Below, one piece after another: positions 16,929 to 41,414 of a stretch of DNA of 51,056 nt. The notes below the pieces were generated by a model that did no database searches, was not told the origin of the DNA, and saw nothing but the letters and a program-made list of their open reading frames with translations. Source of the DNA: Bacteroidales bacterium (GTDB taxonomy: Bacteria > Bacteroidota > Bacteroidia > Bacteroidales > UBA10428); assembly GCA_016934395.1 (NCBI GenBank), contig JAFGSZ010000105.1, positions 1-51,056 on the forward strand, in the 5' to 3' direction. The position numbers were made by a program, and so were the translations under genes. Every line of letters begins with the position of its first letter. The first letter of the stretch is position 1.

Positions 16929-17526
16929 CGCTACTTGTTAAATAATTTTTCAGGTTCCTTTTTCCATTTTGTATATGACTCTTTACTTTTATTAAGGTGT
17001 GCCCGGTAAGAACAGAAATTTCTTTATAGCTCTTATCTTCAAAATAAAACAATTTTATGCACTCACCCTGTTCCCTGTTCAAACTGCCTATAGCCTCTTC
17101 AAGTAATTCTAAATAATTCATTTGTTCATTATCTGGATGCATTTCCTCCTCAAATTCCATAAATTCAATAAGAAAATTTCTATCAACTTGTGAAGATATT
17201 TTCCGCCGTGCTTCTTTTGACCGGATATACATTAAACAGTAATTTTTTACTACTGTATATAACCACGATTTAAAGGAAGTTACATTATGTTTTTTAAGTT
17301 TTTCAATTAAAATTTCATAGATGTCCATAACGGCATCCTTACTTAACTCCTCATCTTTCAGATATTTTATGGCAATTCCGTAAACAAGGTGAACATATAA
17401 CCCAAATAATTCAGCCAAAATATTCAAATCAAGCGTTTTCTGATATATGATTATAAGTTCCTCATCGGTTTTTTTACTTTCCGGATGGGATTTTCTTTTG
17501 CTGTTATTTAAAAACCGAATTGTCAA
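16909..17526 (-). CDS. ECF-type RNA polymerase sigma factor
   Basis: The 205-residue product has sigma-70 region 2 (about residues 35-110: AELFGLYVHLVYGIAIKYL, DAVMDIYEILIEKL, FKSWLYTVVKNYCLMYIRS) and region 4 (about 140-195: LNREQGECIKLFYFEDKSY, EISVLTGHTLIKVKSHIQNG). It would direct RNA polymerase to a small regulon, controlled by the overlapping membrane anti-sigma protein. No ATG is available at the N-terminus; the most likely start is TTG at 17526, with an in-frame stop shortly upstream. Its own divergent neighbours, the TonB-like and VIT-vWA genes, are natural candidate targets, but this is inferred from position only. Confidence 0.88.
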   Translation of the reverse strand: MTIRFLNNSKRKSHPESKKTDEELIIIYQKTLDLNILAELFGLYVHLVYGIAIKYLKDEELSKDAVMDIYEILIEKLKKHNVTSFKSWLYTVVKNYCLMYIRSKEARRKISSQVDRNFLIEFMEFEEEMHPDNEQMNYLELLEEAIGSLNREQGECIKLFYFEDKSYKEISVLTGHTLIKVKSHIQNGKRNLKNYLTSSDGKYTL

Positions 17527-17763
17527 TCTGGTATTTATTTTAATAAATCCAATTTAATTAAAATACCGTACAGCACAAATTATTCTGAATATTATATGCT
17601 GCAGAACATATTTAGTAATACGATACTGGCATCTTTTTTGCTGTTTATTGTATTGAATTGCAACTTATTATAGTTCTTTGACAAAATTGATTTCAAATTT
17701 TTATGGATTTCCACCATGTGTTGCATCTATTAAGTAAACAATTTTCACTTAAACACACATATC

Positions 17764-18441
17764 ATGGAAACAAAAAAGTCACATAAAGCAAACCTGGAGA
17801 ATAAAAAAGGCCTTTTTTTCGAACTCGGCCTTGTTATTGTTCTCTCTCTTGTTCTCATTGCATTCGAATGGTCGGGTAATAAAAAAGATTTGACAAACCT
17901 GATCAGGGTTTCGAATACTATAGCTGATGAAGAATTAATTATCAATACCATTCAGGAGAAAAAAATTCCGCTACCTAAAGAGCCTGCAGTGCCAGAATTT
18001 AAAATTCTTGATAACAGCTCTGATATTGAGGAGGACATCATTGAAATTAATGTAGATGTCAAACCCTGGGACTTTGTTGATTTTAATAATGATGAAACAG
18101 AAGCCGAAGAGGCACTACCCTTTTTTAGGGTAGAAGAATTACCAAGCTTCCGAAATGGCGATATAAATTCTTTTAACAAATACATCCAGGGGAAATTACG
18201 ATATAGCCCGGAAGCTATTAACCTGGGATTAGAAGGACGGATCTTTATCCAGTTTGTGGTAGACAAAAAAGGTAATGTTACCAAGGTACAAATTCAAAGA
18301 GGTATTGATCCCCTGCTGGATAATCAGGTGATAGAAGTTATGGAAAACTCTCCGAAATGGAAACCGGGTAAACAACGTGATAAAGCTGTTGATGTAGTCT
18401 TTACAATGTCCGTTTTATTTAAACTTGAAAAAAGCTTTTAA
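17764..18441 (+). CDS. TonB-family periplasmic-spanning protein
   Basis: The 225-residue protein has a short cytoplasmic start, one membrane helix at about residues 18-36 (FELGLVIVLSLVLIAFEW), a Pro/Glu-containing periplasmic linker (KKIPLPKEPAVPEF, acidic stretches) and a TonB C-terminal domain at about 125-222 (LGLEGRIFIQFVVDKKGNV, RGIDPLLDNQVIE, NSPKWKPGKQRDKAV). Classical TonB passes proton-motive energy to outer-membrane receptors; no ExbB/ExbD genes lie here, so it may instead be a specialised TonB-like protein. The C-terminal domain is very similar to that of the divergent anti-sigma protein, pointing to duplication. The next gene starts 61 bases after its stop. Confidence 0.83.
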   Translation: METKKSHKANLENKKGLFFELGLVIVLSLVLIAFEWSGNKKDLTNLIRVSNTIADEELIINTIQEKKIPLPKEPAVPEFKILDNSSDIEEDIIEINVDVKPWDFVDFNNDETEAEEALPFFRVEELPSFRNGDINSFNKYIQGKLRYSPEAINLGLEGRIFIQFVVDKKGNVTKVQIQRGIDPLLDNQVIEVMENSPKWKPGKQRDKAVDVVFTMSVLFKLEKSF

Positions 18442-18502
18442 TCTGACTCCTTTTAAAACTTTCTTTAAACAATAGATTATTTATCCATAAAAATTTGAAA
18501 TC

Positions 18503-20848
18503 ATGAAATTATTAAAGTATATATCCAGAAAAACAACTTATCTAAGTTTTACCCTGATATTTTTATTAAATACAGTATTTTGTTTTAATCAGGAAGCAGA
18601 ACAAAAAGATAAGACCTTATCTCCTTATTTTGTAGTAATAAATAGAGATAGTGAAACAGATCAGCTGCCGCTAAAATCTACAGCGGCTGATGTAACTATT
18701 TCAGGAGTAATTGCCGATGTTACGATTAAACAGATTTATAAAAATGAAGGGAAAACAACCCTGGAAGCTATTTATGTTTTCCCGGCCTCAACTCAGGCCG
18801 CTGTTTATGCCATGACCATGAAAATTGGTGAACGTGAAATTGAGGCCATAGTTCAGGAAAAAGATTTGGCCAGAAAACAATATGAATTAGCGAAAAATGA
18901 AGGCAAAACTGCCAGTTTACTCGAACAGAAACGTCCCAATGTCTTTCAGATGAATATAGGTAACATCCTGCCGGGCGATGTAATTGAAGTTAAATTATCC
19001 TACACTGAACTGCTGGTCCCTAAATCAGGAGTTTATGAATTTGTTTATCCAACAGTTGTTGGTCCTCGATATGCCAATTCACTTACCGACCCAATGGAAG
19101 ATTCCTGGGTGGCCAATCCTTATCTGGAAGAAAATAAACCTCCGACATATACTTTTCTATTTTCGGCAAAAATATCTACCGGGATTCCCGTGAAGGATAT
19201 TCAATCACCCTCACATAATATCCAGGTTCAATATAATAATAAATCCACTGCTCAGATAAAACTTCAGGACACTGATAAATATAAAGGCAATAAAGATTTT
19301 ATTCTTCAATACAGGCTGGCCGGCGGGGCTATTGAAGACGGGCTGATGTTATATAAAGGAAAAGATGAAAACTTTTTTTTAGCCATGGTCCAGCCACCCA
19401 GGCAGGTTACCAGTGAATTTATTCCCCCAAGAGAATATATTTTTATTGTGGATGTATCGGGCTCCATGAACGGATTCCCCTTGACCGTTTCAAAGTCGCT
19501 GATGAAAGATTTATTGGCAGGATTAAGGCCTCAGGATAAATTTAACGTTATCCTTTTTGCCGGAGCTTCAAGTATGTATGCCCCTCAATCGCTTTCAGGT
19601 TCAGAAACAAATATCAAACTGGCTATGGAGCATATAAATAAACAGTCCGGCGGCGGAGGAACGGAATTACTGCCCGCGTTACAGAAAGCGTTGAATTTGC
19701 CAAAAGAGGAAGATATTTCCCGAATTCTGGTTATTCTTACTGATGGGTATGTATCTGTTGAAAGGGAAGCATTTCAATTGATCCGGCAAAATATGGGCAA
19801 GGCAAACTTCTTTGCTTTCGGTATCGGCTCTTCGGTTAACCGGTACATTATTGAGGGAATTGCCAAATCGGGCAATGGCGAGCCATTTGTCGTAACAAAT
19901 CAAAATGAATCTCGAAAAATTGCTGATCAGTTTAAAAAATATGTAGCCTCCCCGGTGCTCACAAACATTCAAATTTCATTTAATGGTTTCAATGCTGCGC
20001 AGATACTTCCTGAACGATACCCCGATGTATTTGCTGAACGTCCGCTAATAATTTCCGGAAAATATTCTGGTGAAGCTAAAGGAAATATTACTATTACAGG
20101 ATATTCAGGCGCCGGCAAATTTTCATCTGTAATTCGGGTGGCCGATTACAAAGAAGCGGTGGATCAAAATGCCCTGAGATACCTTTGGGCCAGGACCAAA
20201 TTGCAATACATTGATGATTATTCTTCGGGGGAAACCGCAGAGAATATGGATGATTTTAAAACTGAAATTTTGGAAATCGGCCTGAAATACAACCTGCTCA
20301 CACGATTTACATCATTTATAGCTATAGATTCAGAAATAAGAAATCCGGATGGAAGTATTACCCGGGTTAAACAGCCATTGCCTTTACCCGAGGGGGTAAA
20401 TAATTATGCCGTTGGTTCACCGATGTACCTAACCGGCAAAAAAAGTTCACCAACAGGTGCTATAAAAAGCATAAACTTAAATATCGTAGCTGACGAAGAA
20501 TTTGAAATAAGCGAAGAGAAAGATATAACCAAACCTGAATTTTTTACAGTTGAAAAGGCGGCTGAATATACCGGAGGTATGGAAGCATTTAAGAAATTTA
20601 TTCTGGCAAATATTCAATATCCGGAAAAATTAAAGACCTCGGGAATATCCGGTACAGTTTACATTCAATTTTCTATCGGTATTGATGGTTCTGTTTCAGA
20701 TGTAAAAGTATTACGAGGATTACATCCCCTGTTGGATCAGGAAGCCATACGGGTTATTAAACTTTCAGCAAAATGGACACCGGCGCAGCAGGGTGGAAAG
20801 CCGGTAAAAACCACATTAACAGTCCCTGTACAATTTAGACTGAACTGA
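18503..20848 (+). CDS. VIT / von Willebrand A protein with C-terminal TonB domain
   Basis: The 781-residue exported protein (signal peptide about 1-28) shows a VIT domain at about 38-170 (VTISGVIADVTIKQIYKNEG, ARKQYELAKNEGK, FQMNIGNILPGDVIEVKLSY). A vWA domain follows at about 311-480 with an intact MIDAS metal site (DVSGSMN, 317-323; later TDGYVS and FGIGSSVNRYIIE). A TonB C-terminal domain occupies about 682-781 (GISGTVYIQFSIGIDGSV, VLRGLHPLLDQEAI). VIT-vWA proteins are normally surface or periplasmic adhesion-like proteins; ending in a TonB domain is unusual and makes it the third such domain in 5 kb. There is no membrane helix before the TonB domain apart from the signal peptide, so it is probably periplasmic. 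A strong terminator follows. Confidence 0.9.
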   Translation: MKLLKYISRKTTYLSFTLIFLLNTVFCFNQEAEQKDKTLSPYFVVINRDSETDQLPLKSTAADVTISGVIADVTIKQIYKNEGKTTLEAIYVFPASTQAAVYAMTMKIGEREIEAIVQEKDLARKQYELAKNEGKTASLLEQKRPNVFQMNIGNILPGDVIEVKLSYTELLVPKSGVYEFVYPTVVGPRYANSLTDPMEDSWVANPYLEENKPPTYTFLFSAKISTGIPVKDIQSPSHNIQVQYNNKSTAQIKLQDTDKYKGNKDFILQYRLAGGAIEDGLMLYKGKDENFFLAMVQPPRQVTSEFIPPREYIFIVDVSGSMNGFPLTVSKSLMKDLLAGLRPQDKFNVILFAGASSMYAPQSLSGSETNIKLAMEHINKQSGGGGTELLPALQKALNLPKEEDISRILVILTDGYVSVEREAFQLIRQNMGKANFFAFGIGSSVNRYIIEGIAKSGNGEPFVVTNQNESRKIADQFKKYVASPVLTNIQISFNGFNAAQILPERYPDVFAERPLIISGKYSGEAKGNITITGYSGAGKFSSVIRVADYKEAVDQNALRYLWARTKLQYIDDYSSGETAENMDDFKTEILEIGLKYNLLTRFTSFIAIDSEIRNPDGSITRVKQPLPLPEGVNNYAVGSPMYLTGKKSSPTGAIKSINLNIVADEEFEISEEKDITKPEFFTVEKAAEYTGGMEAFKKFILANIQYPEKLKTSGISGTVYIQFSIGIDGSVSDVKVLRGLHPLLDQEAIRVIKLSAKWTPAQQGGKPVKTTLTVPVQFRLN

Positions 20849-28421: not shown

Positions 28422-29438
28422 CTAATACCTGTTCAGCCAACGATATCTTCTGGCATTATCGCCAAATTTAACAGCAAGCATTAATTCATGTGAACCAAGT
28501 GTATTTTTTTGAATGCTGCTTAGAGTATAGTCAAACGCATACCCGAAATAAAATTTATCCACCCGGGCGCCTGCCATAAAAATTACAGATGATCCTTTTC
28601 CGGCAAGAGTTTCATCATAAAGCTTAAATCCTCCTCCGGTGCGGTAGGTTAGACCAGCCCAATAATCTTCCTTAAAATAAAATTTGAGGTTTACATCACC
28701 CTGTGCACTAAACTTCTCTGTAGATTTAAAAAGGAATGAAGGCTCAACAAATAAAAAATCAATTAAATCAAATCGATACCCGGCCATTACAAAATAGGTT
28801 CTGAGCATCTCAAAACCAAATCCCTGATTGTTTAATTTGAGTGAACTTTGAAACAATTGCTGGGCAGAAAACCCTGCATATAAATTTTTATTCGAAAAAT
28901 AAACTCCAAAGTTGGCATCAGGCACGAGCGCCGATTTCTCTGCGTTATTATATAAATTATCAACATCATCCAGTAAAACTATTTTAGAATCATCAATACC
29001 AAACTGAAATCCGGTAAGCGAAACTCCAAATGAAAGCTGAGACCTGTCTAAGGTTAAATGGTAAGAATAGGTGCCCTGGAATCCGGTTCTGTTAAACGCA
29101 CCATTCCTGTCTGCAAATACATATGCTCCAAACCCCACACGCCCGCTTCTTGATTTTGCACGCCGGCGCTTACGAACAGATGCCGAACGAAAAATAAAAC
29201 TATTTTTAAGCAAACGGGTTTGTCCGCTTAAAGCATAGGTACTGGGAGCGTCTTTTAATCCAACCCATTGTTCCCTGGCAGTAACATTAACGGCAGTATA
29301 TCCCTCATGGCCTGCAATAGCAGGATTCAGCAGAAATCCATTCATCATGTATTGACTATATACAGGAAACTGCTGAGCTTTTATAGCTATTGAGCCTAAT
29401 AAGAAAGAAAATACCAGTATATATTTTACTTTTTTCAT
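28422..29438 (-). CDS. PorP/SprF family type IX secretion membrane protein
   Basis: The 338-residue protein starts with a signal peptide (about 1-21) followed by the family hallmark QFPVYSQYMMNGFLLNPAIAG, and continues as an outer-membrane beta-barrel with repeated GFGAYVFAD / SFGVSLTGF-type strands. It ends near LMLAVKFGDNARRYRWLNRY. PorP/SprF proteins work with the type IX secretion system and are usually encoded next to, and needed for, proteins with a type B (CHU_C) sorting domain such as SprB. Exactly that arrangement is seen here: the CHU_C gene lies 125 bases upstream on the same strand. A run of basic residues at about 84-97 (ASVRKRRRAKSRSG) is an odd insertion for a barrel loop. Confidence 0.92.
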   Translation of the reverse strand: MKKVKYILVFSFLLGSIAIKAQQFPVYSQYMMNGFLLNPAIAGHEGYTAVNVTAREQWVGLKDAPSTYALSGQTRLLKNSFIFRSASVRKRRRAKSRSGRVGFGAYVFADRNGAFNRTGFQGTYSYHLTLDRSQLSFGVSLTGFQFGIDDSKIVLLDDVDNLYNNAEKSALVPDANFGVYFSNKNLYAGFSAQQLFQSSLKLNNQGFGFEMLRTYFVMAGYRFDLIDFLFVEPSFLFKSTEKFSAQGDVNLKFYFKEDYWAGLTYRTGGGFKLYDETLAGKGSSVIFMAGARVDKFYFGYAFDYTLSSIQKNTLGSHELMLAVKFGDNARRYRWLNRY

Positions 29439-29563: not shown

Positions 29564-30592
29564 TTAACGAATTATATTCACTGTACCCACCAGGGTATCA
29601 AAATTGTCTACATTGAGTTTTATTACATAATAATAGGAATCCATGGGTAATTCTTTACCTGCCTGAGTATGCCCATCCCAGGGTTGTCCGGAAATGTTTG
29701 TTGATCGATAGATCAGTCTGCCCCATCGGTCAAATATTTCAAGCTCGGCATTCGGGAACAGATTCATATAGGGTATAATCCATTCGTCATTCTGTCCGTC
29801 ACCATTTGGTGTTATTGTATTTGGCATTTCTGCAAATAACAATTCCAAATCACAGGGCAGCATTAAAATAGTATCCTGGGCAATACAACCATTATCATCC
29901 ATAACAACCACAGAAATAGTATCTACAGTTCCCTGGCTGGATCCAATTTGAATGGGATTACCGATATCTCCGGTTGACCAGTCATAAAAACTAAAATATC
30001 CGGCATTCAGTTCATACAATCCAGTCCCGCAGACCGTTGTATCCGGCCCGAGATCCACAACGGGTAATGGATGTACAACCAGTTGTGAGGAATCATAATC
30101 CACACAACCATCAATATCAGTTACTCTCACCCAAACTCCTTCCGATTGATTTGTGACATAGGTGGGATTATCACTCCCATCCTGCCATAAATATGTTACC
30201 GGTTGAGTTGATGACCCTGAAGCATCAAATTCAAAATTTCCGTCTGCGCATATTTCATTAAAATCCGCACCCAGATTTACATCCGGCCTGCGAACATCTA
30301 CATATGCTTCTACAGGATTTCCTATACAATTATAATCTGTGATTTCAACCACCTGAAGACGATGGTTTCTGCGATCGGTGTCCCATTGAACAACAATGGA
30401 ATCATTAGAATTATCAAGAATTATCCCTCCATCGATAAGCCACTCAAAGGTAGAATTATAACTTCCAGTAATGCCATAAGCTTCAATACTGCCGGCACAG
30501 GCAAAAGGTAAATTTTGCCCGTGCCCATATACAGTACCGAGTATTATGAACATTAGTGTTATTATCTTATTCTTGTAACCTATGAGAAACAT
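29564..30592 (-). CDS. Secreted protein with Ig/PKD-like domains and CHU_C (type B) sorting domain
   Basis: The 342-residue product has a signal peptide (about 1-25), then a PKD-like domain (about 30-100, with WLIDGGIIL and VVQWDTD) and two short Ig-like domains (about 105-175 and 180-248). The chain ends in the gliding-motility-associated C-terminal domain (about 255-342): TPNGDGQND at 261-269, LEIFDRWGRLIYRS, WDGHTQAGKELPMDSYYYVI and the final VGTVNIIR. This domain directs export by the type IX system and attachment at the surface. It is short compared with SprB-type adhesins and may be the cap, anchor or adaptor for the much larger protein upstream. The PorP/SprF gene follows. Confidence 0.92.
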   Translation of the reverse strand: MFLIGYKNKIITLMFIILGTVYGHGQNLPFACAGSIEAYGITGSYNSTFEWLIDGGIILDNSNDSIVVQWDTDRRNHRLQVVEITDYNCIGNPVEAYVDVRRPDVNLGADFNEICADGNFEFDASGSSTQPVTYLWQDGSDNPTYVTNQSEGVWVRVTDIDGCVDYDSSQLVVHPLPVVDLGPDTTVCGTGLYELNAGYFSFYDWSTGDIGNPIQIGSSQGTVDTISVVVMDDNGCIAQDTILMLPCDLELLFAEMPNTITPNGDGQNDEWIIPYMNLFPNAELEIFDRWGRLIYRSTNISGQPWDGHTQAGKELPMDSYYYVIKLNVDNFDTLVGTVNIIR

Positions 30593-30647: not shown

Positions 30648-31601
30648 TTAATAGCTGTAGGTATTAGGTATATGATAGATATCTCCTGTTGAAGGAGCAG
30701 GGTTAACGATAAATACCACTGTAGTTTTAGCACCAAAAGCATGTGCATTAACAGCTCCTGCCAAATAATCTGATTTATGTGAAATTGCAGAAACAATACC
30801 TGTTCCGGTTACACCTGATGCAGAAACAACAGAATATGTATAACGGGTACGTGCATTGTTTTCAACGTCCAAAGCAGCAGAAGTTAATGTATAGGTGAAA
30901 TTCGGAGATGTTCCGGCAAAACCTGAAGTACCGGTTTTTGCTTTTGCACCTAAGCCAAAATCAGCTACATTATGAGTAGCCGTTACAGTAGCTGTAGGGC
31001 TGCCACCAGCATCAATATTTTCAACAATTTCTGTAATTGTAAAAGAATACGCAGCTAATGCATCAGGAGCACTTTCAGTGATCGCTAATACAACCGAAGC
31101 AGCTGGCTGATCATCACATAAACCTGTAGTTACGTCAGCAGTAGAAAACTGGGCTGAAGGTGCAGGAATTGCGGTTACATTCAAAACTGTTGGAGAAGCA
31201 TCTGCGCAACCACCAAAAGCAGCTGAAGATTCTTCTGCCACGTTAATTACATAATCACCAGCAACCGGATACGTAATAGTTGCATAGTTTGCATCACCCG
31301 GCTTATTAATTGTAGGTGCAGTTCCGGGATCAGTCGGAGCTGTCCAGTTCCATACAAAACCGGTTTGTAATGTCCAGCTACCACCAGCATTATAGCTTGG
31401 ATGATAAACAGGATCCGGTTCGGCAAAATAACCTAAAGTAGCGCCAACAGTTACATATTCAACATCGGCGGGAGCTACTGCGGCAGCATCATACACCACA
31501 TAATTTCCAGAAGGATCGTTCACCTGTGCAAACACACCATTGGTTACAAGTATTGCAACAGCAACACTCATCAACGTTCTAACTAAATTCACTTTTTTCA
31601 T
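30648..31601 (-). CDS. Secreted Ala-rich PKD-like protein with P-x-T-G-x-x-Y-H-I-x-N tail
   Basis: The 317-residue protein has a signal peptide (about 1-25, ILVTNGVFAQ). The mature part is rich in Ala, Thr, Val and Pro. It contains one PKD-like segment (about 70-145: FVWNWTAPTD, GDYVINVAEES), then a region of beta strands without a recognised family. It ends abruptly in APSTGDIYHIPNTYSY, lacking any type A or B sorting domain. The end closely resembles that of the giant protein encoded just upstream (PETGPAFHISNDNDL), suggesting a shared function of the tail. Size and composition would suit a repeating structural subunit, but that is speculation. It lies 55 bases upstream of the CHU_C gene in the same direction. 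Confidence 0.75.
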   Translation of the reverse strand: MKKVNLVRTLMSVAVAILVTNGVFAQVNDPSGNYVVYDAAAVAPADVEYVTVGATLGYFAEPDPVYHPSYNAGGSWTLQTGFVWNWTAPTDPGTAPTINKPGDANYATITYPVAGDYVINVAEESSAAFGGCADASPTVLNVTAIPAPSAQFSTADVTTGLCDDQPAASVVLAITESAPDALAAYSFTITEIVENIDAGGSPTATVTATHNVADFGLGAKAKTGTSGFAGTSPNFTYTLTSAALDVENNARTRYTYSVVSASGVTGTGIVSAISHKSDYLAGAVNAHAFGAKTTVVFIVNPAPSTGDIYHIPNTYSY

Positions 31602-31768
31602 AACACTTTGTTTAAATTAATAATGACTTTTTTTAAATATTTATTTTTAAAATCTTCGTGTAATCCACGATTACTGTTAATTTGGTTCTTATTCGTTTAT
31701 ATTTATAATTTGTTTCAATAATTTGATCAATCAGCTTAATTTTATTATTAAATTTAATATGCCTGGTT

Positions 31769-34700
31769 TTATAAATCGTTATCATTCGAAATATGAAATG
31801 CCGGGCCTGTTTCAGGCCGTCTGAATACTGTTACTTCAAAATCGGGAGTTACAGTTGCACATGAGGCAGGTGCGGGAGTTGTTTCTGTAACTATAACAAT
31901 TCCTGTATTACTTATTGTCCCCACCGGAGTTACTGTATCCCAGGTAACTGAAATGGCATTTGTATTTTGTCCGGAATCAATTACCCCGCCGGTTACAGAC
32001 CATACAAAACTATTTCCTGTAATGGCGGTAGAATATGATCCCAGCGCGTTTTCACAAACAATAGTATCTGTTGAAATAATTGCCGGAGCAGGAACAGTAT
32101 TCACGGTGATGGTTGTAATAGCACTGGTATCGATACAGCCTGAGCTGGTAGTTACAACAACAAAAACTTCATCATTATCTACTAAGGAACTGGTGGTATA
32201 GGTAACCAGGGTGCTGTTTTGTACTGAACTGTTATTCAGTTGGAAATTATAATTAGATCCGCCTGAACCCGTAAAAATGACTTCCTCCCCTTCACAAATT
32301 TCATTACCGGTTGAACTATTAACTAAACCGGCTGCAGGTTTGGGATTAACAGTAATAATAATATCCTGATCTCCTACAAGTATGCCGGTACCATTATTGT
32401 CTGTTATTGAGTCCAGGGTGTAAGTTGTTGTAGTTACAGGTGATACGGTTATTGTTAATGGACTTGTGGAAGTAGCATCGGAATAATCGGATGTTCCATC
32501 AGAATAATAAACTGTCCAATTTGCTGTTCCCGTAAGCGAAACTAAAATATTCACCGATTCACCTTCGCATATTGTGGCATCACCGGTAATAATGGATCCA
32601 GTGGCCAGGGTAATAGTCTCAGTTGTACCGAGAGTAAAATATTGATAGCTGTTACAATTGATATCCGCAGTAGCAGTAACCGTGCCCGAAGTAGCTGTAC
32701 CGGTAATTGTTGGAGTACCGCCTACTTGTACCCATTGCGAACCATTCCATGCTACTATACGCAATGTATTGATATCAGTAGCTGCGTTGGCTACATCACT
32801 TGATCCGTCAAGTGTAAATCTTAATTTGCTTTGCGCATTTGTCGGGGCCTGAAAATGCCAGTATTCAGTCTGACTAACCGTACCGATGCCTGCTCCTATA
32901 CTTGTGGTTGTATAACCTGCATTTGTAGGATTATCAAAGAAATATTCTGCACTTACATCTCCGCTACCGCTAAAGGCTGTTACAGATCTGGCTTCAATTT
33001 TACCCGGATTTCCATTTTTACCTATCGGATAAATAAAATTGGTAGTACCGGAGGCTGTAAGTACTTTTGTGAGTTTTCCGTTTACATAAGAAGAACTGCT
33101 TCCCGATGCAGGGCTTATGATACCTGTTAATCCAATTCTGAGTGTATTGCCGCCAGGATTAATGCGCCCGTTTGTGAGGGTTAACTGGTTATTTATATCC
33201 ACATTACCGGAAAGATTTATACCACTTACATTATTAACCTTTAAGATATTAAATGCCGCATTTGTACCTGTGAAATTTCCTGTTATAGTTTGTAAGGAAA
33301 TTCCGGATAATTCTACAATTGCGTTTGATCCGGTCCCCGCACTGAATGCTCCGGTACCCAGGGTAAGATTTCCCTTTATATCAATTTTTCTGTTATATAA
33401 GTTTATAAATTTTAATCCGGATGTTCCATCTATTGTTAAATTACCCAAAACGTTAAGATTGGCATCCGAAAGTTTCCGATCACCGGTACCACTTAGTTTA
33501 AGATTATTTACCTGCGGATAGCTGCTTAATATATTAAAATTCGTTGTTCCGCCAAACTCAATTGTTCCTCCGGCTGCTGAAAAGAATGCATCATAAACGC
33601 CGGCAGGTATTGCTTCTCTTTCAAGGTACATCAATCCCTGTCCCTTTACCAGTCCTAACCGGTGTCCAAAAGTGGAGTTAAGCTTAAGGGTTCCCTGAAT
33701 TTCGGTTGTATAGGATGAAATATAATTAGCCGTGGCAGTAACTTCGTGTGTTAAATTAATTTTTGCAATAGCACCTCTTGGACCGCCAGTTACATTGGGC
33801 GTCCAAATTGTGCCAGTATTCCAGTTTCCTGTAGTATTGGTTTCATATTCCGGCACATTATCAGGAATTGCACCATTAAACCATGAGCCATCAACACCTG
33901 CTGTATAGTCACCGCTGATTTCTTCGTCAGGAACACCTTCAAATTCAAAGATCAGGGTCTCTGATGATTCATCAAATTTTGTGGTGTCATCGTACTTATT
34001 CCACTCTCCACTGCCATCATTTAGCAGCCTTGCAGTAATATAATCGTATATATCATACGGGCTTGTTACCCTAACATCAGCTGGATTATATTTCATGTTT
34101 ACCGTGCCATCAAATCCTGATATGCCGTTGGCATCCATGGACCAGTGATATTGCAGCACATTATCCGCATCAACAATTTCAGGATTTGGCGCTTCAGCAT
34201 CTTCCTGAATACTCGGATGCATTTCATCAGCAGCTTTTACTGTTATACTTCCTGAACTGTTGCCATTTGCATCAATGATCATTGTAACCGGAGTATACTT
34301 GCCACCAGACCCAATTGGGTAAACAAAAGAGGAAGCCCCGGATGGTAATACTTTCTTTACACCTTTATCTGTAAACGAAATATTGGTTTGGATCATATTT
34401 GATGAGGAAAACGCAACAGTTTCTTCAATAACCGCACCTAAATTTAAAGTAAGAAGGTTTTTCCCAATAGTAAAAACACCACCATTCATTTTTAAATTAT
34501 CAGTAATTGTCAGATCATTACCCAATGGAACAGTAACATTGTTACTAATTGTAATTTTACCAAATGTTCCCGAACCTGACAGTTGCTGTTCGAAACTGCC
34601 ATTAAAGTCAATACCGTCTCCGGCTCCGCCATAAATATGAGTGGCATCACTGAAACAATCTCCAGAAATATAAACTGTATTGCTGCTATCCCGTAATGTA

Positions 34701-37700
34701 CCACCAAGTAATTGAAGATCGTTCTGTACCGTTATATCGGCTCCGGCAGCAGCAAGACTTAATGTGTTATTTGAAGATTTAATTAGGTTATAAAAGTTAG
34801 TATTTCCAACAATCCGTTGGTCTGAAGTCCCATTTAAATACGTAGTATTATTATTTGCAGTAAAGTTTCCTGAATTGATAAAATTGCCATTTACATAAAG
34901 ATTTAATCCATTTGCATCAAATGTTGTTCCTGATCCTATGTTTAGATTTTCAGTGATCGTTAGAGGCACTGTCCACATAGTTAAAGATGGACTATTTGAA
35001 CCGGAATTGTCCAATGTAATATTCTTCAAATCAATAGTTGAATAGATACCCATATCCTTATTAGCCGCCAAAGTAGAACTATTTCCAAACACAAAACCAG
35101 AACCAGACCCTAAACTACTGGATTCCGGATCAAGATATAATGAAGGGAAGGCCGGAGTAGTTTGAGAATGAACAATAGTAATTGATGCGTCTGCTACCTG
35201 GGTAAATTCACTGCCTGCATTTAGTATTTCAAATACACCTCTTCGGTTTTCCGGAGCATCTGTTTCTCCAATTATAACAGTTGAATTGGCGTTATTTTGT
35301 GAAAAATTCAGGATTCCTTCAGTAGTTAATGTATTTCTCCTAATTTGTGATCCTACTATTAAAGTACCCTGCTCTACTTGTATCTCAGCATTTCCGGAAG
35401 CGGAATATTCAATAAAATTGTTGGTTCCTCCGTTTAACAACCACTGGCTATTGTCCCCAACTTCCATTAATCCATCCAGGTAAATACCACTATTTGTACC
35501 GGTAGCTCTAACAATTGCATTTGATACACTTAAACTGGTACCGGAAGGAATTTTAAAATTGGCACCTCCACTGGTTAAGGTAATGTCGGTTGAGCTACCC
35601 AATATTATTAAATCACCGCTAATTAGTTCCAGTGCTTTTGTAGCCCCATTAGTAGGCCCTGATAAAGTAAAATCGTTATTACATGTAAAACTATACCCTT
35701 CTAATTTATCAATTTCTAAACGGTATAAATCTGTAATTTCAGCAGCAGTTTTAGTAAATTCACTATTGGATTCTCCATCAATAGTTAAAATCGTATTATT
35801 CGCGGTACCAGCGCCATTATATAAATCAATAATACCTACTCCCTGAATAATATCACCACCAATAATTAATTGATGTTCCAGGCTGGAAGGTGTTGAATTA
35901 TTTACATAAATTGTTCTATCATTGGTTGGAGCAGTTACTGATTGTGTGAAGTCCAAATTTCCGCCAATAGTTAAAATTCTATTGTTCCCGGTTGAAGGAA
36001 ATTCGATTTTACCCCATTCCCAATCTCCAATCCATACATTGCCGCCCACATAAATATCTCCAGCAACACCATTATTTAATAATAATGTAGACCTTCCTCT
36101 TGGGTTCAGATTATAATTTATGGTAATATCTACCGGAAAAGTAAGACTATTATTCCAACCTTCGGTCATTACGTTTGGATATACTGCAGGTGTGGAAGGT
36201 AAAGTAACCGAATCCGCACTGGCTACATATAAAAACCAACTGTATTTCTGATTTGCAAAATCACCAAAATCACCTATTATAACCGGATCGTTAACATTAT
36301 TAATCCATTCGGTAAAAATACCTGTACCTGTTACTTTTATAAATGTAGCAGTATTATTTACATCTACCTGAACACGTGGGAGATCCTCAATGCCATGAGA
36401 AACAGCGGTATCATGATCAAATTCAAGTTCTGCAACGGTGGGATTAACACCTGATGGTACATTTACACGATTTCCATTTCTAACAACAACAATATCACTA
36501 CCAGCAGGTAAATTACCGGCATTTTCTATTAAAGTCCCAACCTCATCCTCCCACATTGGATTTCCGACGGTAACATCATTCCAGTTACCGTTTTTTCTGG
36601 AATACAATATTCTTCTATTATTAAATTCCCCATTCTGGCCTGCTGCAAATTCTCCATCGATAAATCCAAATGTATTTTCTTTGTATTCCAGTATTGGGCT
36701 CCCATTGATCCCTGAATTGGCATCTAACCATGAATTATTAAATAAAACATGTTCCCTGAAATTATTGGGCACATTCGATGAATACGTGAACCTATAGTAG
36801 ACATTAGCCGCAGGAACAGAGGAAAAACCTGTTTCCTCAGACATCCAGTAATATGCCAGTACATTGACAGGATTTCGGGTTGCCGGATGATAAGCATTTA
36901 CAGGATTTACCTGAACAGAACCGCTTACAGCACTTCCAAAGGTATAATTATCAATAAATATTTCACCGGGTGTATATTTTCCTGTTACACCAACAGGATA
37001 GAACGCAACAGATGTATTTGCTCCATAAGTTCCGGATAGTGTAAATTCTAAAGTTAATCCGCCATCAGAAGCGTTGCCTGCTGATCTAAAATATCTCGCA
37101 TTGGTGTAACCACTTATATTGTTTGTAACTGTTAGATTATAAATATCAAGATCAAACATTCCATTGGTTAATGTAACATCAGTACAATTAACATTACTTA
37201 ATAAAATAACTCCATTACCATCATTTAACTCAATATGCCCAAAGCTTTGTTCTTTGCTTGTTGAACCTTTCAGTGTGTGTTGGCCAGTCCCGCCAGTAAG
37301 TTCTATTCTTCCAGGATTGGTCCCATCTGCTAATATTTCACCATCAATTATCTCGATGTCGCCATTTTGCTCAATAGTATATCTATATGTATTTAAACTT
37401 CCCCGCCTGATGGTAAGGTCATTTAAAATTGTTATAGCTGTATTAGCTGCAACACCGGGTGTTTCAGATCGGCCCGGACTTTGAAGTTCAACAGAATAAA
37501 AAGATGAAGTGCCTAATTTATCTTTTTCAATATACAAATTATAGAATACCAAATCAGATGGTGTGGCTGTATTTTCGATAATTATTGATGAATTATCAGC
37601 ACCAATAAAATATGTAGTATTATTATTATGATCATATACCCCTCCATCTTCTATAATTAAATCACCACCAATTTTAACGTCAAAACCTTTTGTTTCCAAT

Positions 37701-39439
37701 GTTGTATTTGCACCAATTGTAAGATCATTTAAAACTGTAAGGTTACTTTGTAATGCTACCTGTTGTGTACCAGCGTTTACAGATTCCGTTAAGGTAAGGT
37801 TCCAAAATGGCGCTGTAGTATTTATTTCAAATTCCGGTTGCCCTCCGGCATCTTCAGTTGGAATCAGGAGCTCAATTGTACCTCCGGTAACATTAATATT
37901 CCCTTCATCACAACCAATATCAATACCATTTGTTGCGGTAGTATTAACAGCGTCAATCTGTATTAATCCGCCAGACATATTAAACGAATAATCACTTTGA
38001 GGTAAAGCAAACACTGCCGAAGAACCACGGCTATCCGATAAATTATTTATATATAATGCTCCACCTGATTGAATATAACTAAATCGTCCTGTTGTATTTG
38101 CTTCTTTCACCTGGGTGGTATAAATTTCCCCGCCTTCTAAAACCAATTTTCCGGGCTCTGCAACATTACTGAAATAGGTAATACCTCCCGTATTGGCAGG
38201 ATTGGTGAATGTACCTGATGAAACCTGTAACGTTCCGTAAATTGTTATACCACGCCAGCCTCCTCCAGTTGTGTGTGTTGATACATCAGCGCCATCAATC
38301 CATAAACGTGCATTGTAGGGTATGTGAAACTCCTGGGGATCTGTACCTGTTCTGAATGCGCCCAATATCGGGATATTTATATTTGATCCCAGTTTTAGGG
38401 TTCCATTATACAGTACCAGGGCAAGACGTTCCCAGCCTCCCGGGCCATCTTCTGGGTCAGCGCCACCAGCTCCTGTAACAGGTCCAAATAAATTAAAATT
38501 AGCCGTATTGGTAGAAATTACTGATAATATGTATGTATCATCCGTACCTTTATCAAGAAAAAAACGATAAAAATCGGTTGTGCCATTACAGGTAAGAATA
38601 TTATCTGTTGCACCACTAAAAATTGCTTTGACTGCACCATTGGTAGCTGCAGTATATATTGCCCCATTGGCAAAATCAATTGTTCCGTTGTTTGTTACAT
38701 CCCCTTTAAATTCGATGGTATGCACTGCATTCCCGGCACCTACAACAATACTTCCATCTGTTTCAACGGTTGTATTACCATTTATTAAAATATTCAGCGC
38801 TGTAGTGGAAGAACCATTATTAATTTGAAATTTTCCCTTATTTATAGTAAGGTTGCCGTTAATGATATAATTGTTAGTTATAATTACTGCATCAGTGGCA
38901 TTATTCAAATTAACCTGAAGGTTATAAAAGGTACGTGCTGAACCTGCAATAAATCCGTTTCCGTTATAAACAACTGTACCCTCACCAAAATCTTCAGTGA
39001 TAAAATGTGATGCATCTCCTGATGGAAAATTATCAGCTGCCAGGTATATAATACCGCCGCCCCTGATTTCAGAAAATGTATGTCCGGTTGTTGTTGTAAT
39101 ATCCAGTTCACCGTTTACAGTAAGAATGGCATTCGTTTTATTATTATTACCAGCCTGGATTGTTATTATTCTTCCGGCCAATATAATAACATTATCGGTT
39201 GCACTTGTTGGTGAGGTTGTGGGTGTATAATTTCCCGGATTGTTTGGTAATGACCCGGAAGGATCAAGTGTCCATATTGCGGGATCATCCCAATTACCAG
39301 CAACCAGAGGATACCAGGTTACAGCATAAATATTAGCGCTAAATACTGCAAGTGTCAGAAATAACAAAAAACCCTTATAATACTTTTTAAGTTTTATATG
39401 GTTTCTAAAAAATAATAATATAATTCTGCTTAGGCTCAA
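31769..39439 (-). CDS. Giant (2556-residue) secreted repetitive surface protein
   Basis: The chain begins at a TTG (no ATG is available) with a long signal peptide ending SANIYA. It contains about three large blocks, each opening with a Gly-Asn-Trp motif (GNWDDPAIW near 48, NGNWNDVT near 946, GNWNTGTIW near 1870). Each continues with beta-helix-like repeats of the type LTVNGELDI / GNFINSGNFTANNNT, and closes with a conserved YP[IV]G-x-x-GKYTP-like module (near 811, 1706 and 2138). Ig/PKD-like domains fill about 2280-2556. The protein stops after RRPETGPAFHISNDNDL with no type A or CHU_C sorting domain. It probably forms an extended extracellular adhesin or fibre exported by the type IX system. 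Three downstream genes (317-residue, CHU_C, PorP/SprF) run in the same direction. Confidence 0.85.
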   Translation of the reverse strand: MSLSRIILLFFRNHIKLKKYYKGFLLFLTLAVFSANIYAVTWYPLVAGNWDDPAIWTLDPSGSLPNNPGNYTPTTSPTSATDNVIILAGRIITIQAGNNNKTNAILTVNGELDITTTTGHTFSEIRGGGIIYLAADNFPSGDASHFITEDFGEGTVVYNGNGFIAGSARTFYNLQVNLNNATDAVIITNNYIINGNLTINKGKFQINNGSSTTALNILINGNTTVETDGSIVVGAGNAVHTIEFKGDVTNNGTIDFANGAIYTAATNGAVKAIFSGATDNILTCNGTTDFYRFFLDKGTDDTYILSVISTNTANFNLFGPVTGAGGADPEDGPGGWERLALVLYNGTLKLGSNINIPILGAFRTGTDPQEFHIPYNARLWIDGADVSTHTTGGGWRGITIYGTLQVSSGTFTNPANTGGITYFSNVAEPGKLVLEGGEIYTTQVKEANTTGRFSYIQSGGALYINNLSDSRGSSAVFALPQSDYSFNMSGGLIQIDAVNTTATNGIDIGCDEGNINVTGGTIELLIPTEDAGGQPEFEINTTAPFWNLTLTESVNAGTQQVALQSNLTVLNDLTIGANTTLETKGFDVKIGGDLIIEDGGVYDHNNNTTYFIGADNSSIIIENTATPSDLVFYNLYIEKDKLGTSSFYSVELQSPGRSETPGVAANTAITILNDLTIRRGSLNTYRYTIEQNGDIEIIDGEILADGTNPGRIELTGGTGQHTLKGSTSKEQSFGHIELNDGNGVILLSNVNCTDVTLTNGMFDLDIYNLTVTNNISGYTNARYFRSAGNASDGGLTLEFTLSGTYGANTSVAFYPVGVTGKYTPGEIFIDNYTFGSAVSGSVQVNPVNAYHPATRNPVNVLAYYWMSEETGFSSVPAANVYYRFTYSSNVPNNFREHVLFNNSWLDANSGINGSPILEYKENTFGFIDGEFAAGQNGEFNNRRILYSRKNGNWNDVTVGNPMWEDEVGTLIENAGNLPAGSDIVVVRNGNRVNVPSGVNPTVAELEFDHDTAVSHGIEDLPRVQVDVNNTATFIKVTGTGIFTEWINNVNDPVIIGDFGDFANQKYSWFLYVASADSVTLPSTPAVYPNVMTEGWNNSLTFPVDITINYNLNPRGRSTLLLNNGVAGDIYVGGNVWIGDWEWGKIEFPSTGNNRILTIGGNLDFTQSVTAPTNDRTIYVNNSTPSSLEHQLIIGGDIIQGVGIIDLYNGAGTANNTILTIDGESNSEFTKTAAEITDLYRLEIDKLEGYSFTCNNDFTLSGPTNGATKALELISGDLIILGSSTDITLTSGGANFKIPSGTSLSVSNAIVRATGTNSGIYLDGLMEVGDNSQWLLNGGTNNFIEYSASGNAEIQVEQGTLIVGSQIRRNTLTTEGILNFSQNNANSTVIIGETDAPENRRGVFEILNAGSEFTQVADASITIVHSQTTPAFPSLYLDPESSSLGSGSGFVFGNSSTLAANKDMGIYSTIDLKNITLDNSGSNSPSLTMWTVPLTITENLNIGSGTTFDANGLNLYVNGNFINSGNFTANNNTTYLNGTSDQRIVGNTNFYNLIKSSNNTLSLAAAGADITVQNDLQLLGGTLRDSSNTVYISGDCFSDATHIYGGAGDGIDFNGSFEQQLSGSGTFGKITISNNVTVPLGNDLTITDNLKMNGGVFTIGKNLLTLNLGAVIEETVAFSSSNMIQTNISFTDKGVKKVLPSGASSFVYPIGSGGKYTPVTMIIDANGNSSGSITVKAADEMHPSIQEDAEAPNPEIVDADNVLQYHWSMDANGISGFDGTVNMKYNPADVRVTSPYDIYDYITARLLNDGSGEWNKYDDTTKFDESSETLIFEFEGVPDEEISGDYTAGVDGSWFNGAIPDNVPEYETNTTGNWNTGTIWTPNVTGGPRGAIAKINLTHEVTATANYISSYTTEIQGTLKLNSTFGHRLGLVKGQGLMYLEREAIPAGVYDAFFSAAGGTIEFGGTTNFNILSSYPQVNNLKLSGTGDRKLSDANLNVLGNLTIDGTSGLKFINLYNRKIDIKGNLTLGTGAFSAGTGSNAIVELSGISLQTITGNFTGTNAAFNILKVNNVSGINLSGNVDINNQLTLTNGRINPGGNTLRIGLTGIISPASGSSSSYVNGKLTKVLTASGTTNFIYPIGKNGNPGKIEARSVTAFSGSGDVSAEYFFDNPTNAGYTTTSIGAGIGTVSQTEYWHFQAPTNAQSKLRFTLDGSSDVANAATDINTLRIVAWNGSQWVQVGGTPTITGTATSGTVTATADINCNSYQYFTLGTTETITLATGSIITGDATICEGESVNILVSLTGTANWTVYYSDGTSDYSDATSTSPLTITVSPVTTTTYTLDSITDNNGTGILVGDQDIIITVNPKPAAGLVNSSTGNEICEGEEVIFTGSGGSNYNFQLNNSSVQNSTLVTYTTSSLVDNDEVFVVVTTSSGCIDTSAITTITVNTVPAPAIISTDTIVCENALGSYSTAITGNSFVWSVTGGVIDSGQNTNAISVTWDTVTPVGTISNTGIVIVTETTPAPASCATVTPDFEVTVFRRPETGPAFHISNDNDL

Positions 39440-39998: not shown

Positions 39999-41414
39999 CT
40001 ATAAACTTTTTATCTCAGTTACCAGTTTCTGGATAGAATCTTTGGCATTTCCAAACAGCATACGGGTTTTATCGTGATAAAAAAGATAATTTTCTATAGC
40101 GGCATATCCTTTCCCCATACCGCGCTTCATAACAATAATATTTTTTGCTTCATGAGCCAGAATAATCGGCATCCCATAAATGGGGCTACCCGGATCGTCG
40201 AGCGCTGCAGGATTAACCACATCGTTAGCTCCTATAACAATTGCAACATCTACATTGGGCATATCGGGATTGATATCATCCATTTCTATTAATTTATCAT
40301 AGGGAACATCAGCTTCTGCGAGCAACACATTCATATGCCCCGGCATTCTTCCTGCTACCGGATGAATGGCGTATTTAACTTCTACTCCTTTATCCGATAA
40401 CATACGGTCCATTTCACTGCAAATATGCTGTGCCTGTGCAGCAGCTAATCCATAACCCGGAATTATTACCACCTTTTGAGAATAACTTAATAATACCGCT
40501 GCATCACTGAGTGATATTTCTTTAATGGTACCTATCTCTTTATTTGCAGCAACACCTGCCCCACCGCCAAAAGCGCCAATTATAACATTTAACAACGATC
40601 GGTTCATTGCCCGGCACATTAACAACGTAAGAATTGTACCCGCAGCACCCACAAGAATCCCGCCTAATATCATGGCCTGATTCTGATAAATAAATCCTGC
40701 CATTGCAGCAGCAATACCTGTAAACGAATTTAATAATGAAATTACTACGGGCATATCTGCACCGCCAATGGGCATAACAAATGTAATTCCGTATATAAGA
40801 GACAACGCTAATAATGCGTATATCCATCCTTGGGATGGTTCGGTTGCAAAAATTAAATACACAGTTATTCCGGCAATGATGGCAAGAAATAATAAATTAA
40901 TATAGGTCATAATGGGAGAAAAGATATCCCCGACTTTACCATCGAGTTTTCCATAGGCAATCATACTTCCGCTAAAGGCAACACTTCCAATTATCAATCC
41001 GAGAAGTGTAACTAACACAGATGTGTTATTGGGATTTGAAAATTCCATAAGGGCAACGAGAGCTGACGCGGCTCCTCCGGTGGCATTATAAAAAGAAACC
41101 AGTTGGGGCATTGCAGTCATTTTAATTTTTCGGGCAATTATTGCGCCGATAATGGTCCCTATAGTTATTGTAATAATTATTAAAATTATATTTGGAAGCG
41201 CTATATGTTCCCCGTTGTTATTTCTGTGAAATATTAATGTGGTAATCATTGCCAGTAACATACCCGCTGCTGCCCAAAGGTTCCCTCTTTTTGCACTTTC
41301 GGGATGACTTAATAATTTTAACCCGATAACAAACAAAATTGCAGCTATTAGGTAACTTAATTCAAGAATTACATCACCACCGGTAACTCCTATTTGCTCT
41401 ATAATATTATTCAC
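39999..41414 (-). CDS. pntB: Proton-translocating NAD(P) transhydrogenase subunit beta
   Basis: The 471-residue product has an N-terminal membrane domain of about eight or nine helices (about 15-270, including QLVSFYNATGGAASALVALMEF-like PntB sequence) and the soluble NADP(H)-binding domain III at about 300-471 (IIPGYGLAAAQAQH, HPVAGRMPGHMNVLLAEADV, GANDVVNPAA, RGMGKGYAAIENYLF). With the alpha subunits it couples hydride transfer from NADH to NADP+ to inward proton flow across the cytoplasmic membrane. Translation appears to start at a GTG (41414). It is the last gene of a three-gene unit in the order pntAA-pntAB-pntB, with 50 bases to the preceding gene. Confidence 0.95.
   Translation of the reverse strand: MNNIIEQIGVTGGDVILELSYLIAAILFVIGLKLLSHPESAKRGNLWAAAGMLLAMITTLIFHRNNNGEHIALPNIILIIITITIGTIIGAIIARKIKMTAMPQLVSFYNATGGAASALVALMEFSNPNNTSVLVTLLGLIIGSVAFSGSMIAYGKLDGKVGDIFSPIMTYINLLFLAIIAGITVYLIFATEPSQGWIYALLALSLIYGITFVMPIGGADMPVVISLLNSFTGIAAAMAGFIYQNQAMILGGILVGAAGTILTLLMCRAMNRSLLNVIIGAFGGGAGVAANKEIGTIKEISLSDAAVLLSYSQKVVIIPGYGLAAAQAQHICSEMDRMLSDKGVEVKYAIHPVAGRMPGHMNVLLAEADVPYDKLIEMDDINPDMPNVDVAIVIGANDVVNPAALDDPGSPIYGMPIILAHEAKNIIVMKRGMGKGYAAIENYLFYHDKTRMLFGNAKDSIQKLVTEIKSL

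Follow-up and report, generated by a model that had tools for sequence, protein, structure and literature searches.

Exported proteins of the type IX-dependent route (T9SS) are assigned as substrates by their own C-terminal domain (CTD). In the described pairs of type B CTD substrates and PorP/SprF shuttles (SprB-SprF and PG1035-PorP-PorE), the exported protein itself carries the CTD (PMC12618676, PMC9143113). In type V (FimA/Mfa) pili of Bacteroidia, a strand at the N-terminal edge of one subunit may be supplied by another subunit, and in Mfa4 the protein's own first strand is freed by gingipain cleavage (PMC4789730). Chaperone-usher pili, discussed in the same paper, probably join their Ig-like subunits by donor-strand complementation from an N-terminal donor. 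The locus analyzed here resembles the first of these arrangements in that P0003 carries a CHU_C (type B) domain and is next to a PorP/SprF gene, P0004. It differs in that two neighbouring exported proteins, P0001 and P0002, have no recognised CTD and share a C-terminal tail that fits a CTD-bearing adaptor. We found no description of this system in searches limited to open-licence PubMed Central papers without preprints (papers consulted also include PMC12635249 and PMC10994853).

The window, the whole stretch of DNA that was analyzed, is 51,056 nucleotides of contig JAFGSZ010000105.1 (assembly GCA_016934395.1) from a Bacteroidales bacterium. The features of the locus are listed in the table.

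Features of the locus, with coordinates in the window
Position	Strand	Feature	Supporting data
31769..39439	-	P0002, giant exported protein (2556 aa), no T9SS sorting domain recognised; donor	no Pfam or NCBIfam sorting domain
31772..31816	-	C-terminal donor tail of P0002, PETGPAFHISNDNDL	tail profile E 2.5e-11 (a query row)
31772..32092	-	Last PKD/Ig-like domain of P0002 plus tail	41% identical to the end of a tail protein on another contig (C27) of the same genome
30648..31601	-	P0001, tail protein (317 aa): signal peptide, acceptor-like N-domain, second domain, tail	no Pfam or NCBIfam sorting domain
30651..30695	-	C-terminal donor tail of P0001, PSTGDIYHIPNTYSY	tail profile E 4.2e-13 (a query row)
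31140..31460	-	N-terminal domain of P0001, related to the adaptor's acceptor domain	profile-profile probability 97.4, E 9.8e-12, 81 columns (14 small tail protein rows against 17 adaptor rows, the window among both)
29564..30592	-	P0003, adaptor (342 aa): N-terminal acceptor domain, further PKD-like domains, C-terminal CHU_C	
30260..30517	-	Acceptor domain of P0003, starting at the presumed mature N-terminus (QNLPFACAGS...) without strand A	the window is one of the 17 rows of the acceptor alignment
29597..29830	-	CHU_C / T9SS type B sorting domain of P0003	PF13585 E 1.7e-21; TIGR04131 E 4.4e-18
28422..29438	-	P0004, PorP/SprF family outer-membrane protein, domain over nearly the whole protein	PF11751 E 2e-75; TIGR03519 E 4.4e-74

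The original prediction, that P0001 and P0002 end in a shared terminal motif, was confirmed. The DNA pattern for TGxx[FY]HIxN, allowing at most 1 mismatch, matched 3 times in the window, against 0.12 expected (0 of 100 shuffles reached 3). The two exact matches are the two tails, and the third (41230-41256) is, by our arithmetic, out of frame with the ORF there. In 1663 distinct complete ORFs (780,007 residues) of the window and the fetched loci, P.TG..[FY]HI.N occurred 40 times, 40 of 40 within 8 aa of the C-terminus, and a relaxed form occurred 79 of 79 times in this position, although many of these loci were fetched because they hold tails. The original prediction held that the two proteins share little else near their ends. 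In contrast, we found that they also share the strand just before the tail (VxVxPxP), and the conserved unit is about 25-30 residues.

A 30-position tail profile was used to search genomes at three taxonomic levels. It matched 19 of 23 genomes of the family (E<=1.2e-4), 28 of 295 genomes of the order (E<=1e-4) and, in a sample of 296 genomes of the phylum, 1, the own genome. The family tally at E<=0.1 was 20 of 23, but one of these genomes had only partial hits and was not counted. These counts are lower bounds, because in many genomes of the order and phylum searches only part of the first-look candidates were scored (for instance 27 of 37 in the own genome), and because loci with strongly diverged tails (...LTRR, ...NIFHF) are not found by this profile. 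The matches checked, 84 of 84, end at most 5 aa before the stop; seven of them are also query rows (four from the own genome and three from one other genome). There were 12 weaker hits in the family search (E 0.002-0.093), and the one inspected is internal.

The genes around the tails were compared across the fetched loci. Of the 83 matches that fall in a listed ORF, 40 are small tail proteins (S). Of these 40 genes, 31 are directly followed by a gene with a PKD-like acceptor domain at its N-terminus, usually ending in CHU_C and next to PorP/SprF; 39 of 40 have an acceptor gene in the fetched locus, and 30 of 40 have a PorP relative among the next three genes. Tailed giants lie beside this set or elsewhere. 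For example, in Perlabentimonas gracilis a 3266-aa and a 521-aa tail protein lie on another contig than the S-adaptor-PorP set. Only 21 of 43 large tail ORFs have an acceptor gene in the fetched stretch, although many stretches end at contig ends. The genome containing the window has SprA (TIGR04189, over its cut-off), in two pieces on two contigs.

The acceptor domains of the adaptors start a few residues after the signal peptide and lack strand A, whereas related domains inside long proteins carry a tail-like strand there, such as PVTSIISGNTLPV followed by C (one row filed as internal is in fact N-terminal). Short acceptor frames and tails coincide (22/10/6/257, Fisher 2e-20), but the cut for this table was set by hand after seeing the list. 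Of the 267 tail-negative genomes of the order, 71 also have acceptor-profile hits, mostly inside long frames, and two genomes have tails but no acceptor hit at E<=1e-8. Diverged terminal tails were seen by eye at 9 of 9 testable genomes that were acceptor-positive and tail-negative. Twelve loci were fetched for this comparison; two were further loci of genomes that already have tails, and one had no sequence upstream. Of 16 rows with an N-terminal acceptor domain and no CHU_C match, five were dropped (three run off a contig, one has masked letters and one ends like a CHU_C protein). The remaining complete proteins, 11 of 11, end in a tail, as judged by eye, and thus have both acceptor and tail; two of these match the acceptor profile weakly (1e-5, 2e-3).

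We found that tail endings are concerted within genomes. The value was 13.81 within a genome against 3.53 between genomes (0 of 5000 permutations). Because related genomes are not independent, the value of 0 of 5000 is inflated; with one genome per family, it was 27 of 5000. For tails of giants and small proteins, 24 pairs from different fetched loci had a mean of 12.62, against 2.86 between genomes.

We used AlphaFold models to ask whether the tail could complete an acceptor domain. In a model of an S protein joined to its adaptor, from locus L053, a relative of the P0001/P0003 pair, the tail forms an ordered strand (265-268; block 261-270, pLDDT 87). Solved Ig domains (7r3t_B, 7quz and 8q2h) align to model residues 259..397/398, that is, from the tail to the end of the acceptor domain, over 80-83 residues at 2.1-2.2 A. 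Of the 50 rows shown, 25 start in the tail (254-263) and 8 start at 309-317 without it. This model joins two genes by reading through stops, which brings them near each other, and its pTM is 0.49; without coordinates or residue pairs, the contact is inferred from strand assignment and from the first and last aligned residues. In a model of a giant joined to S without adaptor, from locus L051, no tail strand forms (last S block, pLDDT 49), and the giant's tail did not dock on S. This speaks against a giant-to-S link, but the model is weak (mean pLDDT 60.6). Because the two models come from different orthologues and differ in quality, the control is not clean. An alignment that put S rows onto the giant's domain was not used. 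A search of PDB sequences with the acceptor profile gave no hit below E 0.13. Two Pfam PKD_6 matches were local matches, one of them under Pfam's cut-off.

Of the three functions originally proposed for the tail (a recognition tag, an incomplete strand donated to a neighbouring subunit, or a processing/ligation site), the evidence supports the donated strand, and we consider this the best reading (probability about 0.7), although it rests on sequence analysis and modelling alone. In this reading the last 10-15 residues (PxTGPx[YF]HIxN) of P0001 and P0002 act as strand A of a PKD/Ig-like domain whose remaining strands begin the mature P0003 protein. Inserting the tail would complete that domain and tie the CTD-less protein non-covalently to P0003, whose CHU_C domain would be recognised and anchored by P0004. 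The likely partner is the CHU_C protein originally named, but through its N-terminal domain rather than its CHU_C domain. Docking of an S tail on its adaptor is predicted only, from the one model of a relative and not from the window's own proteins. Docking of the giant's tail, which has not been modelled on any adaptor, is inferred, as are signal-peptide cleavage, export by T9SS as or before the complex forms, and surface anchoring. P0001 also has an acceptor-type N-domain, so it may sit as a link between giant and adaptor (gene order giant - P0001 - P0003 - P0004), or giant and P0001 may each dock on adaptor copies. The presence of one such groove per adaptor copy against two or three tail proteins per operon is unexplained. 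Several of the counts rest on regular expressions and on reading by eye.

Other explanations seem less likely. The tail could itself be a compact T9SS targeting or anchoring signal, read directly by PorP/SprF or the translocon, with the adaptor a separate substrate of the same carrier. The frequent PorP neighbours of small tail genes and the lack of a recognised CTD in the tail proteins scanned fit this possibility. However, adaptor domains lack the strand that the tail resembles, the tail is ordered in a model with the adaptor and not in one without it, and tails co-occur with short acceptor proteins. PorP also sits beside giants with fused CHU_C where we saw no tail in a partial search. We consider this rival unlikely, and more doubtful still that the tail is a leftover linker from the fission of one gene into adaptor and tail protein, kept by descent without function. 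Fused forms do exist: on another contig (C46) of the same genome a domain of the acceptor type, with SLPVTGEIS... before it, lies inside one ORF that also has CHU_C, and in many PorP loci CHU_C is fused to the giant. But tails of giants and small proteins change in concert within a genome and stay terminal, which a leftover would not be expected to do.

It seems very unlikely that the tail is a sortase-like processing or ligation site, cut and joined to lipid or another protein, and this possibility has no support beyond a resemblance of PxTG to LPXTG. In both window proteins only 11 residues follow TG, with no membrane segment; each of 100 tails has its core 5-14 residues from the end (the range that the expression asked for); and diverged tails such as ...NIFHF or ...PSGIWHNP lack TG. 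Equally improbable is that the motif is the ordinary edge of a PKD-like repeat, an inter-domain linker that happens to be terminal. The first 16-17 profile positions (strand plus PxP) do match weakly elsewhere, including the internal hit inspected. However, there was no internal copy of the motif in the 780,007 residues searched, and the strong hits checked are terminal.

A broader possibility, about as likely as not, is a modular surface-chain system of Bacteroidales. Exported proteins without any T9SS domain, up to giants of over 3000 residues and encoded beside the core genes or elsewhere in the genome, would bear a genome-specific C-terminal donor strand; link proteins would bear an acceptor domain and a tail; and a terminal adaptor would bear the acceptor and the only T9SS domain. 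Strand insertion would build tip - link - adaptor - PorP chains and let one secretion signal serve several cargoes in trans. If the donor-strand reading is right, a tag of about 15 residues recruits proteins to a PorP-anchored adaptor, so a giant adhesin-like protein need not carry its own secretion domain. Proteins with this tail would be missed when substrates are assigned by their own CTD.

The closest structural matches to the S-adaptor model were mostly from GhpA, the grappling-hook protein of Aureispira (9fls, 9flx, 9flu, 9flw), probably a long chain of Ig-type domains of a Bacteroidota bacterium. These made up four of the five top rows (Z 9.3-9.5, rmsd 13.9-27 A, 289-365 residues aligned over several domains). 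The match is of the general domain chain, rows within 1 Z are tied, and we know of no tail or split domain in GhpA. Among the 50 rows shown in each of two fold comparisons, we saw no type V pilin and no chaperone-usher subunit, only a CupB2 chaperone in one of them, which excludes nothing. As is probably the case in chaperone-usher pili, the proposed mechanism is donor-strand complementation of Ig-like domains, with subunits that look both donor and acceptor, but the donor is at the C-terminus and not the N-terminus. As may occur in type V pili, a strand at the N-terminal edge of one subunit would be supplied by another. In contrast to Mfa4, the strand is absent from the gene, and the base carries a T9SS CTD. 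P0001 (...GVFAQ) and P0003 (...GHGQ) have no lipobox cysteine, as read by eye without a signal-peptide program, and no FimA-type Pfam domain was hit in P0001, P0002 or P0003, nor in a repeat search with mature P0001, mature P0003 and the last 410 residues of P0002. If right, the donor-strand reading would give Bacteroidota a strand-swap assembly distinct from type V pili, needing no protease, and a split Ig domain usable as a non-covalent connector.

Four genes lie in order on the minus strand: those for P0002, an exported giant protein, P0001, a small exported protein, P0003, a protein that ends in a CHU_C domain, and P0004, a PorP/SprF protein. Searches of Pfam and NCBIfam found no T9SS sorting domain in P0002 or P0001. 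Signal peptides were judged by eye. SprA is present in the genome, in two pieces on two contigs. The last residues of P0002 and P0001 are as given in the original prediction, which had described a short C-terminal tail shared by these two neighbouring proteins. P0004 and its close relatives end in a conserved ...GDNARRYRWLNRY, and P0004 has no cysteine at all, unlike SprF, whose C-tail twin cysteines matter for gliding (PMC12635249). This may mark a static anchor. Elsewhere in the window, three ORFs end in a similar W.P..Q....V...F.(V/I)...F.L stretch.

Coordinates of the genes and loci discussed
Feature	Location	Coordinates	Strand	Length and content
P0002	window	39439-31769	minus	2556 aa; exported giant
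P0001	window	31601-30648	minus	317 aa; exported
P0003	window	30592-29564	minus	342 aa; ends in CHU_C
P0004	window	29438-28422	minus	PorP/SprF protein
Three ORFs with similar ends	window	15834-20848	one minus, two plus	364 aa (minus); 225 and 781 aa (plus)
Fused ORF (locus L033)	contig C46, same genome	9876-12092	minus	acceptor-type domain and CHU_C
Paralogous set (locus L029)	contig C127, same genome	8347-19999		giant, 256-aa and 242-aa proteins, CHU_C adaptor, PorP

We found further tails in the same genome. A protein on contig C27, with no CHU_C or PorP gene recognised in the 20 kb fetched, ends SRLPQTGPQYHIENNQEY and is 41% identical over the last domain. In a paralogous operon on contig C127, the giant ends LPPTSPIYHDLEEN and both small proteins have tail-like ends. 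We then scanned 84,980 species genomes for relatives of this PorP, using two short peptide patterns, and obtained 80 loci. In 9 of these (L048, L051-L056, L062, L064), a giant's end with tail, one or two small tail proteins, a short adaptor and PorP lie together, and 2 more (L081, L082) have a small tail protein, adaptor and PorP. In many of the others, CHU_C is at the end of a giant instead. At two further loci, L182 (genome G254, contig C5) and L191 (genome G101, contig C1), there are two giant tail ORFs on one strand, with their tails about 10 and 12 kb apart, suggesting duplication of the giant.

A profile built from 20 tails matched 4 places in the own genome with E values from 2.7e-13 to 7.4e-10, the next being 0.29. 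It matched 20 of 23 genomes of the family at E<=0.1, of which 19 have a hit at E<=1.2e-4, and 28 of 295 genomes of the order at E<=1e-4 (17 of 184 genera). In a phylum sample of 296 genomes it matched 1, the own genome. Of the 95 distinct places with E<=1.2e-4, we checked 84 (7 of them query rows, as are the other 11), and all 84 end at most 5 residues before a stop codon. By regular expression, 40 of 40 strict and 79 of 79 relaxed copies in 1663 ORFs are terminal. The condition under which the original prediction would have failed, a motif found mostly inside long proteins, is therefore not fulfilled.

To determine what the tail attaches to, we examined the genes next to it. Of the 83 checked tails that fall in a listed ORF, 40 are on small proteins (under 450 aa, complete) and 43 on larger or cut ones. 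Of the 40, 31 are directly followed by a gene whose product starts with the acceptor domain, 39 have such a gene in the fetched stretch, and 30 have a PorP relative among the next three genes. Most of the 9 others are followed first by another small tail-size gene. Of the 43 large ones, 21 have an acceptor gene and 18 a PorP gene in the fetched stretch, although several stretches end at a contig end.

Adaptors begin, a few residues after the signal peptide, with a PKD-like domain (the acceptor domain) that starts at its first cysteine, for example GQNLPFA followed by CAGSIEAYGITG in the window. In contrast, relatives of that domain inside long proteins carry a strand before this cysteine, for example VHPLPVTSIISGNTLPV on contig C46 of the own genome, or VHPAPATSAITGNSPVV. 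The tails (VHPTPVTGPIYHINN...) look like that strand. The ORF on C46 is a fused form, in which a tail-like stretch (SLPVTGEIS...) precedes an acceptor-type domain within one ORF that also has CHU_C. Two possible link proteins match Pfam PKD_6 only from profile positions 7 and 10 of 82, although these are local matches and one is under the cut-off. Donor and acceptor thus look like two halves of one domain.

We used AlphaFold to predict one natural pair of small tail protein and adaptor (locus L053; same frame, 17 codons apart), read through its stops, with a 23-row alignment. The model had a mean pLDDT of 78.1 and a pTM of 0.49. In it, the tail forms a strand (265-268), the 261-270 block has a pLDDT of 87, and the linker 273-312 is below 50. 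Structural comparison aligned solved Ig domains, 7r3t_B residues 26-108 and 7quz residues 26-109, to model residues 259-397 and 259-398, that is, from the tail to the end of the acceptor domain, over 80 residues at 2.1 A; 8q2h gave 83 residues at 2.2 A. Only the first and last aligned residues are given by this comparison. Of the 50 rows shown, 25 start in the tail (254-263) and 8 at 309-317, after it. Four of the five best structural matches are GhpA fragments of the Aureispira grappling hook (Z 9.3-9.5). In a second prediction, a giant's end was joined to the small tail protein without adaptor (locus L051). The mean pLDDT was 60.6, the giant's tail (93-107) lies in a stretch below 50 without strand, and the last block of the small protein's tail has a pLDDT of 49 and no strand. 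This fits the adaptor as acceptor of the small protein's tail and gives no support to docking of the giant on the small protein, but it is a weaker model of another orthologue.

Tail endings of giants and small proteins resemble each other within a genome. The mean score was 13.81 within genomes against 3.53 between genomes (35 genomes or loci, 53 pairs within), which was reached in 0 of 5000 label permutations. Without the three loci with ...RR tails, the means were 13.50 against 5.46 (0 of 5000), and with one genome per family (10 genomes, 17 pairs) they were 10.41 against 5.01 (27 of 5000). The 24 pairs from different fetched loci of one genome averaged 12.62, although a few such loci are neighbours on one contig. 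This concert is expected if both tails fit one acceptor type, and shared ancestry contributes to it.

We also tested whether tail and acceptor occur in the same genomes. An acceptor profile run over the same 295 genomes hit 97 at E<=1e-8, domains inside long proteins included. These were 26 of the 28 tail genomes (not G103 and G206) and 71 of the 267 others. Counting only short frames (<=420 aa, E<=2e-14; picked by hand from the list of hits), acceptor and tail coincide in 22 genomes, 10 have only the acceptor, 6 only the tail, and 257 neither. We then looked upstream of the 10 acceptor-only cases. One contig starts in the adaptor, and the other 9 have neighbouring genes that, judged by eye, end in a diverged terminal tail such as PKPSTSPIFHF, NKPITSNIFHF, LPNPSGIWHNP or SKPITSGITHY, the least clear being SPALLPLTIFHD and NKPTNILIEHD. 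Eleven complete proteins have an N-terminal acceptor domain and no CHU_C, and all 11, by eye, end in a tail; these could be links. The 242-aa protein of the paralogous set on C127 has both an N-terminal acceptor-type domain and a tail-like end. The N-domain of P0001 is related to the acceptor domain (probability 97.4, E 9.8e-12). A cultured species, Perlabentimonas gracilis (Bacteroidales, Tenuifilaceae), has the set of small tail protein, adaptor and PorP on one contig and a 3266-aa and a 521-aa tail protein on another.

Type B CTD proteins are already known to be recognised and anchored by PorP/SprF-like proteins (PMC12618676, PMC9143113). The simplest account of our data is that the tail completes the first domain of the adaptor, so that the adaptor lends its CTD and anchor to proteins without one. 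Docking of the giants, whether on the adaptor or on link proteins, and the export route are inferred. What would be new is that the exported protein borrows its CTD from a partner, and we found no account of this system in the open-licence papers searched. The proposed arrangement works like donor-strand complementation, and by the features tested it is not a type V or chaperone-usher pilus.
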